Source: Chitinispirillum alkaliphilum | GTDB taxonomy: Bacteria > Fibrobacterota > Chitinivibrionia > Chitinivibrionales > Chitinispirillaceae | Direction: 5' to 3' | DNA: 64,000 nucleotides | NCBI GenBank assembly: GCA_001045525.1 | Contig: LDWW01000004.1 | Location: 124,001 to 188,000 of the forward strand | Part shown: one piece after another, positions 22,262 to 58,674 of the stretch | How the letters are laid out: each line of letters starts with the position of its first letter | How positions within the stretch are numbered: position 1 is the stretch's first letter | The notes under the pieces: model-generated | What the model was told of the DNA's origin: nothing | The model's input: only the letters and a program-made list of their open reading frames with translations | Database searches by the model: none | Translations under genes and position numbers: made by a program

Positions 22262-23263
22262 TTATATCCAACAATTACTATCTTTAGTCTTATAATCTCC
22301 GCTTGTTGCGTATGCCAGACATTTCAATCCACCATTACAACTTGTTTTGTAATAGCAATCAAAACAGTTACTGTCCAAGTTGTTTATATCGCGAATATCC
22401 TCAAGTATTTCCGAGTTTTCATATAACTCATTTAGATTATCAGATAACAGATTACCTACTTTGATCGGAAGTCTTCTGCAGGGCACTAAATCACCATTTG
22501 AAAGAATGGCTAACAGTGAAACACCTGCAGAACAACTATAGGGTCGCCCCCCACACAACAGAAACTGTAAAGCTCTTTCTGCCAGAATTTCTGTTTCAGA
22601 AAATATGAAATACTTATCCTTCAGTTTTTCCTTATTAATCAGATCACAAAGTGTTTTGAATTGCTTCGTGGTCATTTGAAGATTATCTGATTTTCCATTT
22701 GGCAGATATCGGTCTGTCCATATCTTAAATGCTCTGTATCTTCGGGCAATCTTTACAACATGTGGATAATCCATAAAATTTTCTGAGTTCGCGGTAAAAG
22801 AAATGACTGTTGGTATACTCAGTTTGCGGTAAACTTTTAGCGATTCAATAATCTTTTTATAACTCCCCATTCCTCTAATTGAATCATTTCTCTCTCTTTT
22901 TCCTTCTAAGCTAATCTGAACAAAATCAGGTCGGTAATTCTCCAGTTGGTTAAGTACACTTTTTGAAGAAATAAATCCGTTTGAGAGTATTCCAAAAGAA
23001 AACATTTTTGTTTCCCGTACTTTTCTAATCAGATCTACTATATCGGTTCTTAAAAAAGGCTCTCCTCCTGTAAGATTAATATGTGCGTGTGATATTCCTT
23101 TTGTTTTGACAAACATCTGTAGTTGAACTAAAATTTGCTCAAAGTCGTGAAAAGCTAATCCATTGTAATTATAATCTCTTTGATAGCAATGCCTGCATCT
23201 CAAATTACAGTTATCTGTTATATGCCACTGAAAAACTATCGTGTTAGATGGAGCTATATTCAA
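22262..23263 (-). CDS. Radical SAM/SPASM peptide-modifying enzyme
   Basis: 333 residues. The N-terminus carries the radical SAM cluster motif C-x3-C-x2-C (Cys19, Cys23, Cys26 in CNLRCRHC) and the downstream NLTGGEPFLR, which binds the SAM amino group. The C-terminal third is a Cys-rich SPASM region (SNGDLVPCRR, then CFDCYYKTSC, CNGGLKC and a final Cys) that should hold auxiliary Fe-S clusters. Enzymes of this plan install thioether or C-C crosslinks in ribosomal peptides. The only available start is a TTG two bases after the stop of the Gly-Gly-Cys membrane protein, because an in-frame TGA lies just upstream. Translation therefore seems tied to that gene, and its Cys-rich tail is the obvious substrate candidate. 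Confidence 0.9.
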   Translation of the reverse strand: MNIAPSNTIVFQWHITDNCNLRCRHCYQRDYNYNGLAFHDFEQILVQLQMFVKTKGISHAHINLTGGEPFLRTDIVDLIRKVRETKMFSFGILSNGFISSKSVLNQLENYRPDFVQISLEGKRERNDSIRGMGSYKKIIESLKVYRKLSIPTVISFTANSENFMDYPHVVKIARRYRAFKIWTDRYLPNGKSDNLQMTTKQFKTLCDLINKEKLKDKYFIFSETEILAERALQFLLCGGRPYSCSAGVSLLAILSNGDLVPCRRLPIKVGNLLSDNLNELYENSEILEDIRDINNLDSNCFDCYYKTSCNGGLKCLAYATSGDYKTKDSNCWI

Positions 23264-23265
23264 AA

Positions 23266-24228
23266 TTAATCACAACCCCCACATCCTCCCCCACATCCCC
23301 CACAGCCCCCACAGCCTCCACAGCCTCCACAGCCTCCACAGCCTCCACAGCCTCCACAGCCTCCACAGCCCCCTTCACCGCCGCCTCCACCGCGGACAGT
23401 CCCACAGCCCATTGTAGAACCGGGACGGTTATCAAGAAGTGCTGTACTTTCCAATAACTCGCCAAATTGGGTGTCAATAAAAGAATTTATTCCAAATATT
23501 GCAATTCCGTATAAAAGATTATCATCCACAAGCAAATCAGCAGTTTCGTCTGAAGTTTTCAACCATTCAAATCTTTGGGCTGTTCTTTGTAACAGCATTT
23601 TTCCAAGTGCAGTTATAACACCTGGTCTGGCAACTCTGTATAGAATGACAGTTGTCAGAATTAGCAACAAAAACAGATATCCACTTGGTTTATCTCGAAC
23701 TAAACCAAAATAAAGTTTAGTTCCCCCAATTCCCCAAAGGATCACAAGACCCCAAAAGAAACCTTTCCAATGTTGATTTATTTGTGCTGAATCTGGAATC
23801 AGATGTAGTTCTTCTAATCTGGCTTTATTAGGCCGAATAATTTTTTTTATACTATCAATAGAATAAGTTAGGTATAGATCCCTGTATTTGATAGGCTTTT
23901 TAATGTAGTTATAGATTGCTGTTTCAAGAGTGTTAAATTTCGAAATATCAGTTTGCTTTTGCTCAAGAACAATCGCATTTTTTTTAATCGAAATATCAAC
24001 AGCTTTTTGACGCCATAAATTGAAAACACTCATAACAATTGCACCGTATACTCCACTTTTTAGAATCGCAATATCCAGTGGTTCTAATTTGGTTGGTTCA
24101 GGAATTTCAAAATCAGATGTACAATCACAGGGGACATAATGCCTAACATTTAATAACACAACAATTGCATACAGTGTGAACAAAAACATAAACTGAGAGC
24201 CTGGAATACTTACCAGATAATCGATCAT
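23266..24228 (-). CDS. TIGR04222-like membrane protein with (Gly-Gly-Cys)n tail
   Basis: 320 residues. The N-terminus (MIDYLVSIPGSQFMFLFTLY, a membrane helix) and a following LEPLDIAILKSGVYGAIV match, from memory, the TIGR04222 type of membrane protein known for low-complexity Cys/Gly tails. Two further helices lie near residues 155-195. After a soluble stretch the last 35 residues consist of eleven Cys spaced by Gly-Gly (one spacing is three Gly), ending in Asp. The frame is open 17 codons further, but the ATG at 24228 has GAGGAGG 5 bases before it. The tail is the likely substrate of the radical SAM enzyme encoded next. Its function after modification is unknown. Confidence 0.87.
   Translation of the reverse strand: MIDYLVSIPGSQFMFLFTLYAIVVLLNVRHYVPCDCTSDFEIPEPTKLEPLDIAILKSGVYGAIVMSVFNLWRQKAVDISIKKNAIVLEQKQTDISKFNTLETAIYNYIKKPIKYRDLYLTYSIDSIKKIIRPNKARLEELHLIPDSAQINQHWKGFFWGLVILWGIGGTKLYFGLVRDKPSGYLFLLLILTTVILYRVARPGVITALGKMLLQRTAQRFEWLKTSDETADLLVDDNLLYGIAIFGINSFIDTQFGELLESTALLDNRPGSTMGCGTVRGGGGGEGGCGGCGGCGGCGGCGGCGGCGGCGGCGGGCGGCD
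23272..23373. repeat. 9-bp tandem repeat encoding the Gly-Gly-Cys tail
   Basis: Six perfect copies of a 9-base unit (plus-strand ACAGCCTCC) occupy 23311-23364. Diverged units extend this to 23272-23373, covering eleven Cys codons. On the coding strand each perfect unit contains GGAGG. Copy number can change by slippage without breaking the frame. Confidence 0.9.
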
Positions 24229-25058
24229 ATCATCCTCCTCAAGTTCAACACTAATGTTGCGCATACCTGATATGGTCAAATACTATCAGGTTAATATTTT
24301 TTATCAATGTTTCACAGTGGACCTGAACCAAAATTTTTTTCAAATAAAAAAAACTCCCTAAGTTCAGATACAGCAAATGAGAAAAAGTATTTGGAGAGAG
24401 TAGATGACACCCGAAAAGCTATCAAGTCAAGATATATTCTGATATATAGAAATATGGTAAAAAGTGTAATAGGAAATTCATGCACGCCACCATTGGCCGG
24501 GAATAATACTGCATGTTTCTTATCACAACAAATTAGACAAAACACACATTTCCTAATATGTGAAATAAATTTGATGTACTTCTTGCAACCAAGAATCAAT
24601 ATACTGCTAATTGATCTCCGGGAGCAAGCTATTTGAGCGTATTTATGTAGGAGTAGCTCAACTTCTGTTCTTCAACAAACCCAAGAGAACTTGCATCAGT
24701 TAATGTGTGTCGGACAATATTTCACCCGATATTGGTCCCTATTTGGTAAGCAAATCAATTTCATCTCCTATGGCTCCCGGAAGTACAGTAACCAAACCCC
24801 CTTCGATTGTCAAAACCCGCTGTAGTAGACTCAAAATTGAGAACCATAAATTTCAGAACCAAAGCAACCCAATTCCTTAGCCCAGTTCACCCTGCACGAC
24901 ATGAAGAAGCAGACTCTTTACGCGCTTCTCCCAGCTATTTTGGGAGAATTGTGTTCAGTCTTTAGTACTGGCCTTACAGGACAAAAGAAGCGATGAGTAT
25001 TTTACTGATAGCAATTTGATACTCTGCAGGGCGGCTTTTCCATCGATTCTGCCGGTTC
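24229..25058. other. Gene-poor interval upstream of the radical SAM cassette
   Basis: I find no convincing gene in these 830 bases. Short open frames on both strands lack ribosome sites and protein-like composition. The interval holds one copy of the dispersed intergenic repeat (24564-24672) and a small 8-bp hairpin near 24930-24955 (TTCTCCCA / TGGGAGAA). Confidence 0.6.
24564..24672 (+). repeat. Dispersed intergenic repeat, copy A
   Basis: It contains the shared core AATCAATATACTGCTAATTG, then CTCCGGGAGCAAGCTATTTG, and aligns by eye with the copies at 26946, 28869 and 32990. It lies 336 bases upstream of the minus-strand Gly-Gly-Cys gene. Confidence 0.6.
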
Positions 25059-36733: not shown

Positions 36734-37294
36734 TCATCCAATCTCTATCAATATCTCGTTTCTTCGCAGAAACCAAGGCTTAAATGGAGGATCGTAGCGT
36801 GCCCATATGGGATCACCCTTCTCTTCGATCCCTTTTTGTCGCATGGCTGTGCGCAACCGATCCAGATGAGAAAGGTAGCGTTTCTCGGACCATGAACCGG
36901 AATAGCGGATGGCAGCCATACGACGCGGCGGGATTTTTCTGAAATGAATCCGCTCATCCAGCGGCTTGGGGAGAGTCTCGATCCTAAACTGGGAAGGCAT
37001 CATGAACTGCACCAGGAAGCGGTCATCTCTCTTCTCTGAAGCCATTTCCGCCACCGGGGCGGTCATGGCAATTCTGATCCCCTTTGTCTGAGTCACCGGG
37101 GCGGTCATGGCAAGCTTCTCCGATCGCCTGTTCTTACCAAAGATGTAGCCCGCCAGCCTTCTAAAGCCTTCCGTGCCAGCGGATTGCCTAACGCCTTCAA
37201 CTTCCGTCTCTGCCACGATGTAGGGTTCGTATTTCCTGATTTCGAAATCTTCGTATCGTCTCTCTACAACATAGCGGGGTTGTTCATAGCCCAT
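36734..37294 (-). CDS. SOUL-family heme-binding protein
   Basis: 186 residues covering a full SOUL domain. The conserved start YVVERRYEDFEIRKYEPYIV, the repeated MTAPVTQ / MTAPVAE segments and the ending DPIWARYDPPFKPWFLRRNE are family hallmarks. No signal peptide. SOUL/HBP proteins bind heme or tetrapyrroles; whether this one does cannot be judged. AAGGAA precedes the ATG. Single gene in an accessory region. Confidence 0.93.
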   Translation of the reverse strand: MGYEQPRYVVERRYEDFEIRKYEPYIVAETEVEGVRQSAGTEGFRRLAGYIFGKNRRSEKLAMTAPVTQTKGIRIAMTAPVAEMASEKRDDRFLVQFMMPSQFRIETLPKPLDERIHFRKIPPRRMAAIRYSGSWSEKRYLSHLDRLRTAMRQKGIEEKGDPIWARYDPPFKPWFLRRNEILIEIG

Positions 37295-37538
37295 GTTTTA
37301 TTTCCTTTTTACCCATGGTTACCGTGTACTCGGTTACCTGACAAGTCATAAACGTAATCTAATTACGTGCCAAAGACCAGTTATCGACCAGAAATTCAAA
37401 GGAAAATTTTTACCCGAGAAGTAGTGCTGATAATACCCACTGCAGGCAAACCACCCCTTCACTGCACCATGAAAAGCAACAGACTTGCGGCCTTTTGATC
37501 CCTTGCGCTTCAGGAATGCCCATTCGAGCATCCGGTTT

Positions 37539-37849
37539 AGAGACGCCATGACATAACGGTAGAGACGCCATGACATAACGGTAGAGACGCCATGACATAA
37601 CGGTAGAGACGCCATGACATAACGGTAGAGACGCCATGACATAACGGTAGAGACGCCATGACATAACGGTAGAGACGCCATGACATAACGGTAGAGACGC
37701 CATGACATAACGGTAGAGACGCCATGACATAACGGTAGAGACGCCATGACATAACGGTAGAGACGCCATGACATAACGGTAGAGACGCCATGACATAACG
37801 GTAGAGACGCCATGACATAACGGTAGAGACGCCATGACATGGCGTCTCT
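37539..37849. repeat. 22-bp minisatellite (13 perfect units) ending in a REP palindrome
   Basis: Thirteen apparently identical copies of AGAGACGCCATGACATAACG plus GT run from 37539 to 37824. A fourteenth begins at 37825 but changes after 16 bases into the perfect inverted repeat AGAGACGCCATG-A-CATGGCGTCTCT (37825-37849). The array ends 7 bases from the stop of the RAYT transposase gene. Because 22 is not a multiple of three, all three minus-strand frames stay open across it; the resulting long frames are not genes. Confidence 0.95.
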
Positions 37850-37856
37850 ATGATAT

Positions 37857-38477
37857 TTAACGATGGCCCATATTGAAAAAACAATCCGCATCCCATTTGG
37901 CGGGATTATTCCGTATATATTGCCGTATGCGGAATAATTCCTGTTCGTTTCGAACAATATGATCGTGGAATCGTGTTTGCCATGAAAAATTTTTCAGACC
38001 GGTTTTCCTGATTTTTTTTGTTACCTGTTGTTTGAATTGTCCAATGATTGCGCCCAAAACCCCCGATTTCCATTGTGGGTTTTTACCGTATTGGGGGATA
38101 GAGACGCCATGGCGTGGCGTCTCTGCGGAATCGTTACCGGTTATCATATTTGGTCCATGGCATGGTTTTTCCACAATGGGATCATCACCCATCTTTTTAT
38201 TTGTGCCATTATCAATATGAACGATCGCATGAAAATGGTTAGGCATGACAACAAAATCATCAGCAATCACGTTTCCCCTGATCGAAAATGTACGCCCCCA
38301 TTCATCGTATACAATTTTTCCATAGCGATTTAAATTCATTGTATTGTTTTCAACACTTCCAAAAATTGATCTCCTGTTCTTCACACAAATTGTAATGAAA
38401 TAATATGCCGATGCGGAGTAATCCCATCTTTGCAATCGCGCAGATTCAATTCGGTATTTATTACGATACAGTGCCAT
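37857..38477 (-). CDS. REP-associated tyrosine transposase (RAYT, Y1 HUH family)
   Basis: 206 residues. The N-terminal RWDYSASAYYFITICVKNRR, the metal-binding H-U-H motif in MPNHFHAIVHI and the C-terminal FHDHIVRNEQELFRIRQYIR plus NNPAKWD are typical of RAYT/IS200-like proteins. The Tyr of the YIRNNP segment is the expected nucleophile. Between them a variable stretch (about 105-135) is encoded partly by a copy of the REP-like palindrome. GGAG lies 5 bases before the ATG. These enzymes cut single-stranded DNA at hairpins and are thought to spread REP sequences; the array just downstream is the natural substrate. Confidence 0.92.
   Translation of the reverse strand: MALYRNKYRIESARLQRWDYSASAYYFITICVKNRRSIFGSVENNTMNLNRYGKIVYDEWGRTFSIRGNVIADDFVVMPNHFHAIVHIDNGTNKKMGDDPIVEKPCHGPNMITGNDSAETPRHGVSIPQYGKNPQWKSGVLGAIIGQFKQQVTKKIRKTGLKNFSWQTRFHDHIVRNEQELFRIRQYIRNNPAKWDADCFFNMGHR
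38100..38124. repeat. REP-like palindrome inside the RAYT gene
   Basis: AGAGACGCCA (38100-38109) and TGGCGTCTCT (38115-38124) are perfect arms around five bases. The arms equal those of the palindrome at the end of the minisatellite. It lies in frame within the transposase gene, coding for ETPRHGVS. Confidence 0.85.
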
Positions 38478-38889: not shown

Positions 38890-39669
38890 TCAGTTCATTT
38901 CCCGCTTTTTCGTCGGCTTATCAGTTTCTGCTCTACTATCTGTAACTGTTTTTTCCACAGATGCCACTTCTGATTCAGGCTCAAGTTTCTCTATCATTGT
39001 AATCTCGACACTATCTCCGGTCACCGACAGCCTCTCGCCCAGCGCAAGCCTGAAACCCAATCGCTGGGTTTCAGGCCACTCATTAATCAATGCCCCCCTT
39101 TTTCTTTTGAGAACACAAACATAGAATGTATCCTCATCGACAGCACTCATTGGGATATCATTTCCCATGCGATGATCCCTCATCGATTCAATCGTGCGGG
39201 TCAACACCTGCCCGTTGTCAACAAGTCTGTATTCATCAAACCGGGTATTGCTACTATCTTTGAAAACCCAATAATTCGACCCGGTCTCCGAAATAAAGGC
39301 CATACGATTCTCATTTCTGCCTCCCTCCGCAATTCCAGTCCCGCGCGCGAAAACAGGTATTTCTTTTATACCATCAAGGAGGTCTGTCAAGAATGTGTCG
39401 TCTCTGGAAATACTCACCGCAAATCCGGCGGCTGGCTGTGTCCTGAACTGAAAGGCAAACGGTTCCCTGCTGATTGTCACGGTCTGCCCGTTTCCTACCG
39501 GAACACTTCTTCCCCTCTGCTCAATATACAGCGCAAAGCCTTCTGAGGGAATACTGAGCTTCCCCTCTGCTTGTTTCTCCTGCATTCTGGTTTTCAAAGA
39601 CTGTGAACAATTAATACCGCAAATCAGAACAGACAAGCAAAGGACTGGAAGTAGTTTTTTGACATTCAT
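38890..39669 (-). CDS. Exported protein of unknown function (possible lipoprotein)
   Basis: 259 residues. A signal peptide (LLPVLCLSVLICGINC) ends near a Cys, but the residue before it (Asn) fits a lipobox poorly. The mature domain has strand-rich segments (GFALYIEQRGRSVPVGNGQT, EPFAFQFRTQPAAGFAVSIS). A charged tail of about 40 residues ends in KKREMN. GGAGG precedes the ATG by about 7 bases. It may form a two-gene unit with the small protein downstream. No family recognised. Confidence 0.72.
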   Translation of the reverse strand: MNVKKLLPVLCLSVLICGINCSQSLKTRMQEKQAEGKLSIPSEGFALYIEQRGRSVPVGNGQTVTISREPFAFQFRTQPAAGFAVSISRDDTFLTDLLDGIKEIPVFARGTGIAEGGRNENRMAFISETGSNYWVFKDSSNTRFDEYRLVDNGQVLTRTIESMRDHRMGNDIPMSAVDEDTFYVCVLKRKRGALINEWPETQRLGFRLALGERLSVTGDSVEITMIEKLEPESEVASVEKTVTDSRAETDKPTKKREMN

Positions 39670-57729: not shown

Positions 57730-58674
57730 TTAAACAGTAGCCTTTCTCGACAATCTTAATGCAGAACTTGCATTAATCATCAAGAACTCAGCAGTTTTTA
57801 CTGCGGTGTATCCATAAAGGTGAATAGCTTTTCTGCAAAACTCTGCGCGTACTTGAGACACCGCACACTTTCTTCCCCTTTTCATTATCATTTCCGGAGG
57901 AATCTGCTTTTTCAGGCAGATCGATTTGAGCAGATCCGGCAATTCCGGCCGGTTAGTTATATCCTTTAGCAGAATTTCCTTTGATTTACGTGCGTATTCC
58001 AAGGCTTTGCGGATAAAATCAGCACTGCCTTTTACACGAGTATCAGTGAAAAGTTTCTCTTCTTCCTCACTCACGGGCATAAAAGCAGGTTTCTTTGCAT
58101 ACCAATCATTTTTTTTGACTCCACGGCCAGAGCTCATCCAATCCAGATAGCACTCCCTGGCAGCTGTAATATCATCTCCAAACCTGCTCAATATATTGTG
58201 AGTTGACACCCAGCTATGTTTACTGTGTCCCATCACCGTAGCATGACTGGCCCAGGGGTATCTCACAAGCTCATCCAAATCAGAGCAAATTTTACCACGT
58301 ACCGGGTTAAGGTTAACATACCGAATCAGTTCACGTATATACCAGTATTCCTGAGCTACTGTGGATTTAAAACGCTCGCCAAACACATGGCCACTTCGCC
58401 TGTACTTATAGTTGTAATAAGTAGCATAGGAAGTATTTATTCTTTGCATTATTAGCGATAGAGAAACTGTTTTGGGGCGGAGAATAAGGTGATAATGAGT
58501 CCCCATCAAAGCAAAACCGTAGCATTCACAGTCACTTTGGGTAATCACTTCCCCTATTTTGGTGAGCAGAAATTTCTTGTCGTTATTATCCCTGAAAAGC
58601 AATAACTCAGGCAGACCACGTGACATTACGTGGTGTATCTCTCCGGGAAGAGAGATGCGCGCTTTTCTGGGCAT
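57730..58674 (-). CDS. REP-associated tyrosine transposase (Y1 HUH family, long form)
   Basis: 314 residues. The start MPRKARISLPGEIHHVMSRG, the metal-binding H-x-H in LMGTHYHLILRP and the nucleophile region YWYIRELIRYVNLNPVRGKI identify the Y1/RAYT family. The last 120 residues carry helices and a basic end (ASSALRLSRKATV), perhaps a DnaA-like or HTH DNA-binding extension. No ribosome site lies before the ATG. It is different from the RAYT at 37857 and comes with its own repeat type (GGGGACAG). It likely cuts the hairpins made by those repeats. Confidence 0.92.
   Translation of the reverse strand: MPRKARISLPGEIHHVMSRGLPELLLFRDNNDKKFLLTKIGEVITQSDCECYGFALMGTHYHLILRPKTVSLSLIMQRINTSYATYYNYKYRRSGHVFGERFKSTVAQEYWYIRELIRYVNLNPVRGKICSDLDELVRYPWASHATVMGHSKHSWVSTHNILSRFGDDITAARECYLDWMSSGRGVKKNDWYAKKPAFMPVSEEEEKLFTDTRVKGSADFIRKALEYARKSKEILLKDITNRPELPDLLKSICLKKQIPPEMIMKRGRKCAVSQVRAEFCRKAIHLYGYTAVKTAEFLMINASSALRLSRKATV

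Follow-up and report, generated by a model that had tools for sequence, protein, structure and literature searches.

The locus studied here, in Chitinispirillum alkaliphilum, raises the question of how a transposase gene came to lie beside a tandem array built from part of its own REP hairpin, and whether the enzyme took part in making that array. The window, that is, the whole stretch of DNA analysed, has a length of 64,000 nucleotides, and the locus contains the following features:

37538-37823, plus strand: half-REP array of 13 exact 22-bp units TAGAGACGCCATGACATAACGG, recognized as a sequence repeat
37824-37840, plus strand: last, partial array unit of 17 nt, common to the left part of the complete REP
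37824-37850: complete REP palindrome TAGAGACGCCATGACATGGCGTCTCTA, which closes the array 3' of the RAYT stop codon, with its GTAG foot on the array side
37857..38477, minus strand: RAYT-like (TnpAREP) HUH/Y1 transposase ORF of 206 aa, assigned by motifs, profiles and predicted fold
38099-38124: internal REP palindrome AGAGACGCCATGGCGTGGCGTCTCT, with a 25-nt core of 10-5-10, in frame within the RAYT ORF

The first-pass annotation described thirteen exact 22-bp units, closed by a complete palindrome 7 bases from the RAYT gene. Both observations were reproduced: the units start at 37538, and the 7 positions from the palindrome end to the RAYT stop codon leave 6 bases between them. Because the stop codon of this minus-strand ORF lies six bases beyond the palindrome, the array is 3' of the gene. 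With the partial unit included, the array extends from 37538 to 37840 (303 bp) and merges into the closing palindrome, and the copy number of 13 may be inexact because an array of 303 bp is read here from a draft genome of 160 contigs.

The closing palindrome (37824-37850) is a perfect 13-1-13 structure, TAGAGACGCCATG-A-CATGGCGTCTCTA. Its array-side foot is GTAG, whereas its far-end foot is CTAT, a decayed form of CTAC. Each unit consists of the foot and the arm to about 4 nt beyond the dyad, followed by AACG(G), and the GTAG foot is kept in every unit except the first, which is preceded by TT. The unit had been taken for the left half of the palindrome; it does contain the left arm, but it is slightly more than a half, covering 17 of the 27 nt, with the match stopping 3.5 nt beyond the dyad. 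The core 11-mer GAGACGCCATG was found 17 times in the window with at most 1 mismatch, against 0.46 expected by shuffling, and the folding of both palindromes as single-stranded DNA is strong (z of -7.5 and -5.7). The single far arm of the closing REP is 94% complementary to the array units and can pair with every one of them, so misalignment would be favoured. The short AACG filler is possibly a remnant of the second arm (AACG versus GGCG) or of the downstream TTTAACG. There was no Rfam match for the array or the REP element, and no match to the array in viral contigs. Intrastrand triplex repeats (PMC4666352) were ruled out as the identity of the array, their motif being different.

The identification of the minus-strand ORF as a RAYT, and of the palindrome as the REP of this adjacent gene, was also proposed in the first-pass annotation, and both are supported. 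The Pfam model Y1_Tnp gave 23.2 bits (cut-off 23), the NCBIfam model of the REP-associated tyrosine transposase gave 61 bits, under its cut-off of 80, and a profile built from relatives matched PDB 4er8, the E. coli RAYT, with E 2e-9. The top PDB match of the AlphaFold model was again 4er8 (the E. coli RAYT-REP complex, E 1.4e-6), followed by the IS608 and ISDra2 transposases; its core has a pLDDT mostly above 90, and residues ~90-137 are low, at about 47-66. The RAYT motifs are intact, namely the HUH motif NHFH (H81, H83), W166 Q167, and YIRNNP with the catalytic-type Y187. Sequence and predicted fold thus both point to a RAYT. Quentin et al. (2018; PMC6006769) equate subclass 2.4 TnpAREP with RAYT group 4 and list for it the motifs NH[IFV]H, WQ and YIxNNP, a long double-foot REP of the type GT[AG]G ... 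C[TC]AC, and REPs within the gene, in frame, between HUH and Tyr. The protein motifs of our ORF (NHFH, WQ, YIRNNP) fit this subclass, and the locus resembles it further in its long palindromic REP with a GTAG foot and in the in-frame REP placed in a peripheral loop of the ORF between HUH and Tyr. It differs from those REPtrons in having no upstream REP, no REP elsewhere in the genome, a far foot of CTAT instead of CTAC, and an array of 13 half-REP units, of which the sections of the paper covered here make no mention.

The internal palindrome had been overlooked in the first-pass annotation. It encodes residues ~118-126 (AETPRHGVSI), inside the low-confidence loop, and the feet of this copy are decayed. 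The loop that carries it, between the HUH and tyrosine motifs, is predicted by the model to be disordered. Among the 93 related RAYTs having both motifs, 68 have a palindrome between them, while codon-shuffled ORFs gave a mean of 3.5 of 104. Intragenic palindromic elements have been reported (Rickettsia RPE and intragenic GTAG/CGTC REPs; PMC3733652), and they likewise encode, in frame, a peptide of the host protein; here, in contrast, the host gene is the REP's own transposase. Long tandem repeats were also seen in the RAYT loops of three Fibrobacterota relatives: a 9-bp unit x22 around an intact internal REP (L044), a 15-bp unit x27 (L048), and units of 21/42/66 bp (L042). These repeats indicate that this loop is a general expansion site.

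We then consider how far the REP has spread. The first-pass annotation had named absence of the palindrome elsewhere as half of the case against its reading, and a genome-wide count found it absent beyond the locus. All 16 occurrences of the 12-mer AGAGACGCCATG in the 4.43-Mb draft genome fall within this locus, and the full palindrome with at most 3 mismatches occurs in 2 copies, both at the locus; a dispersed REP family in the own genome was therefore ruled out. No second REP palindrome was found upstream of the RAYT gene. Since the palindrome lies nowhere else in the genome and has no upstream copy, we regard this as a reduced REP-RAYT locus. In the strict REPtron (Nunvar et al. 2010), by comparison, the gene is between two inverted REPs and the cognate REP is abundant in the genome, whereas here only the downstream REP is present and the REP is confined to the locus. 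The single other genome from the genus lacks such a RAYT, and no long array (at least 3 units) of this REP type was found in 166 other genomes of the phylum. With two complete palindromes only and no such array in the 166 genomes, the locus stands out in its phylum as an isolated extreme. Four genomes of the same phylum have footed REPs of the same general type, in 1-15 copies, and the REP core of this locus is also present in a few related genomes. The Fibrobacter sp. MAG contig JAAYYB010000229.1 comes from a same-family relative, with the RAYT and REP as in L028/G016. Apart from the RAYT, the window encodes a second Y1 transposase of the long kind (314 aa; 57730-58674, minus strand), and the own genome gave another five Y1 hits at Pfam level, of which four are long.

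Studies have shown that whole-REP tandem clusters occur beside RAYTs (PMC3116915, PMC3733652). The tandem REPIN/BIME clusters (Bertels and Rainey 2011, PMC3116915; Nunvar et al. 2010, PMC2817692; Di Nocera et al. 2013, PMC3733652) are like our array in their head-to-tail amplification of a REP, also beside a RAYT. However, their units are whole REPs or REP pairs with flanking DNA, whereas the unit here is about half a REP plus ~5 nt, and one intact REP ends the array. We defined a half-REP array as a tandem unit with one REP arm but not a whole REP. Such arrays were found at 16 of 104 RAYT loci in many phyla, against a mean of 2.4 (maximum 7) when REPs were swapped between loci (500 swaps); whole-REP arrays were found at 8 of the 104 loci (0.3 with swapped REPs, maximum 3). 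An initial half-array count restricted to foot-defined REPs had missed those in which the foot lies within a long arm (L029, L027); the arrays were recounted. In their common anatomy, an arm that starts at the GTAG foot and stops near the dyad carries a short filler and is joined to one intact REP. Half-REP arrays were also found in other genomes, in 7 of the stretches around 40 REPs mostly away from RAYTs; among them are a 15-bp unit repeated 8.8 times in Flavobacterium and one of 20 bp repeated 6.2 times in Planktothrix. Half-hairpin copying thus looks like a general way in which REPs grow. No description of half-REP arrays was found in the open-access literature searched. What is new here is the half-REP array; whole-REP clusters beside RAYTs and REPs inside genes were known already. 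A nested amplification, of module plus half-unit, was observed in Microcystis upstream of the RAYT (L207 and L209), where direct modules of ~390 bp each end in a 14-bp half-REP array of ~9-13 units and then a full REP.

In 22 unique half-duplications, the dyad-side breakpoint was at most 2 nt from the dyad in 14 and at most 4 nt in 20 (binomial P ~0.002 and ~0.0005, respectively, under a uniform null over the positions that the search allows, estimated at 16; the 22 cases are not fully independent because some share a REP family). The filler between half-units was mostly 0-7 nt, AACG being that of the array at 37538-37823. Half-copies were then compared in one test on all palindromes with an arm of at least 10 in the sampled sequence. 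An adjacent half-copy was present at 41 of 204 REP palindromes and at 4 of 140 other hairpins (P ~1e-6), and within the stratum of arm 10-16 and loop at most 2 at 29 of 153 REPs and 0 of 33 other hairpins (P 0.003); much of this sequence was chosen for holding REPs, so these comparisons are valid within this sample. Under a narrower initial REP definition the counts were 36/182 and 9/162, and the definition was widened because most of the nine non-REP cases were REPs missed at first; one of the four remaining non-REP cases is still REP-like (L281). Repeat periods were divisible by 3 in 38 of 45 cases inside RAYT ORFs and in 17 of 46 outside (P 4e-6), which indicates that the reading frame is selected and that arrays arise regardless of frame.

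Array length also changes between orthologs. In three Microcystis species, whose RAYT proteins are 92% identical and carry the same internal REP, the downstream REP is preceded by +0, +1 and +3 half-units, one count per species; the unit CGTAGGGATAATTC begins one base ahead of the foot and covers the arm as far as the dyad. In Planktothrix (three species), an extra 15-bp half-unit is present in one of the three orthologs. Related RAYTs of Flavobacterium have the internal REP GTAGAGACGCACTGCAGTGCGTCTCTAC in common, with small changes, and differ both in the number of its 15-bp half-units and in the arm repeated, so that the protein carries runs of NVETH or SASLP. This in-frame expansion of the internal REP, which gives protein repeats and can involve either arm of the one palindrome, is seen in the Flavobacterium loci L325, L326, L327 and L331.

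Taken with the anatomy of the array, these data lead us to believe, with a probability of about 0.72, that this is a reduced REP-RAYT locus of the subclass 2.4 type in which a hairpin-seeded duplication of half a REP was followed by expansion through misalignment. The locus carries an HUH transposase gene and two copies of its own REP hairpin, one within the coding sequence and the other directly 3' of it. In the downstream copy, a segment running from the GTAG foot almost to the dyad was duplicated beside the intact REP, as the array anatomy and similar events in relatives show. This event was probably seeded by the hairpin, through template switching or breakage at the folded structure during replication, and two identical 22-bp copies would then have grown to 13 units by misalignment or slippage. 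Against this explanation stand the AACG filler, for which it gives no account, and the isolation of the case within its phylum. Situated outside the gene and with a period not divisible by 3, the array itself is most likely a by-product with no coding function.

The first-pass annotation attributed local amplification to the enzyme. Local amplification of the REP is well supported, by its recurrence at other loci and by the length change between orthologs; a part of the enzyme in the amplification is possible, and the data on gene proximity and cut site do not bear it out. In such a reaction, the RAYT would bind the foot and hairpin on single-stranded DNA and nick beside the foot; half-units would then be added through strand transfer or primed synthesis. 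Studied RAYTs do cut and join single-stranded REP DNA, cutting at CA/CT dinucleotides (PMC8266576), the HUH and Tyr motifs of the ORF (38477..37857) are intact, and the GTAG foot, the RAYT recognition element, is kept in the units. The rarity of half-arrays at non-REP hairpins, the short-loop stratum included, speaks for the RAYT making the first cut. Against this, half-copies were not commoner near the RAYT gene (25 of 138) than more than 500 bp away from it (16 of 66, P 0.35), which rules out a special array density next to the gene, and which action in trans would permit. Moreover, the dyad-side breakpoints showed no CA/CT enrichment (5 seen, 3.8 expected), and the REP has not spread in its own genome. 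None of these three results helps the reading of a RAYT cut. We give an array made by the RAYT clearly less than even odds, and consider it doubtful that the RAYT supplies the nick. A broader and quite tentative speculation is that a RAYT-dependent reaction leaves half-REP arrays behind: acting in trans, the enzyme would add units spanning foot to dyad wherever a cognate REP lies. Arrays would then be a record of earlier RAYT activity, and where the internal REP is the target they would also make the RAYT loop change rapidly.

An ordinary minisatellite, in which a duplication arose by chance, simple replication slippage extended it and the palindrome is incidental, is improbable. Identity across all thirteen units is what slippage typically produces, as is a period that is not a multiple of 3, and the density of tandem repeats is generally higher around RAYT genes, at 0.54 per kb, than in the flanks, at 0.17 per kb. 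Bacterial VNTRs also share with our array the exact head-to-tail units, and with its relatives the varying number between orthologs. However, the unit boundaries here are fixed by the hairpin foot and dyad, and slippage alone would not be expected to yield a recurring foot-to-dyad unit, breakpoints clustered at the dyad, attachment to an intact REP, or the contrast with other hairpins. A selected element, functioning as a transcribed structure at the 3' end or as a decoy for titrating or regulating the RAYT, seems to us very improbable. The array is directly downstream of the stop codon, on the transcribed side, and in single-stranded form its last units and the REP can fold into one extended hairpin (57 nt, -17.5 kcal/mol). 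Nevertheless, the other phylum genomes examined have no such array, unit number and even the amplified arm differ between orthologs, and Rfam gave no match. Hairpin-seeded duplication of half a REP, with later misalignment, is the explanation that we prefer.

The multiplication of REPs has long been an open question, and RAYT action is known mainly from in vitro evidence. Half-REP arrays with foot and dyad breakpoints are a recurring physical trace of the fate of REPs in living genomes, one that lends itself to counting, to comparison between strains, and to reproduction in a test host that has or lacks the enzyme. Through its internal REP, the transposase has an expansion hotspot built into its own coding sequence.

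Some neighbouring features of the window were also recorded. A gene of the SOUL heme-binding family (36734-37294, minus strand) contains an exact 20-bp direct repeat, 42 bp apart; no homolog was found in 24 related genomes, so a comparison through this neighbour gave no empty site. A strong 12-5-12 palindrome without a GTAG foot, GCCTGAAACCCAATCGCTGGGTTTCAGGC (39048-39076), lies inside the ORF 38890-39669 that adjoins the RAYT. Elsewhere, in 22262-24279 (minus strand), an ORF ends in a (Gly-Gly-Cys)n tail that comes from a 9-bp minisatellite at 23291-23370, and the ORF that follows it directly is radical-SAM-like, with CxxxCxxC and a C-terminus rich in Cys; the two look like a peptide-modification pair.
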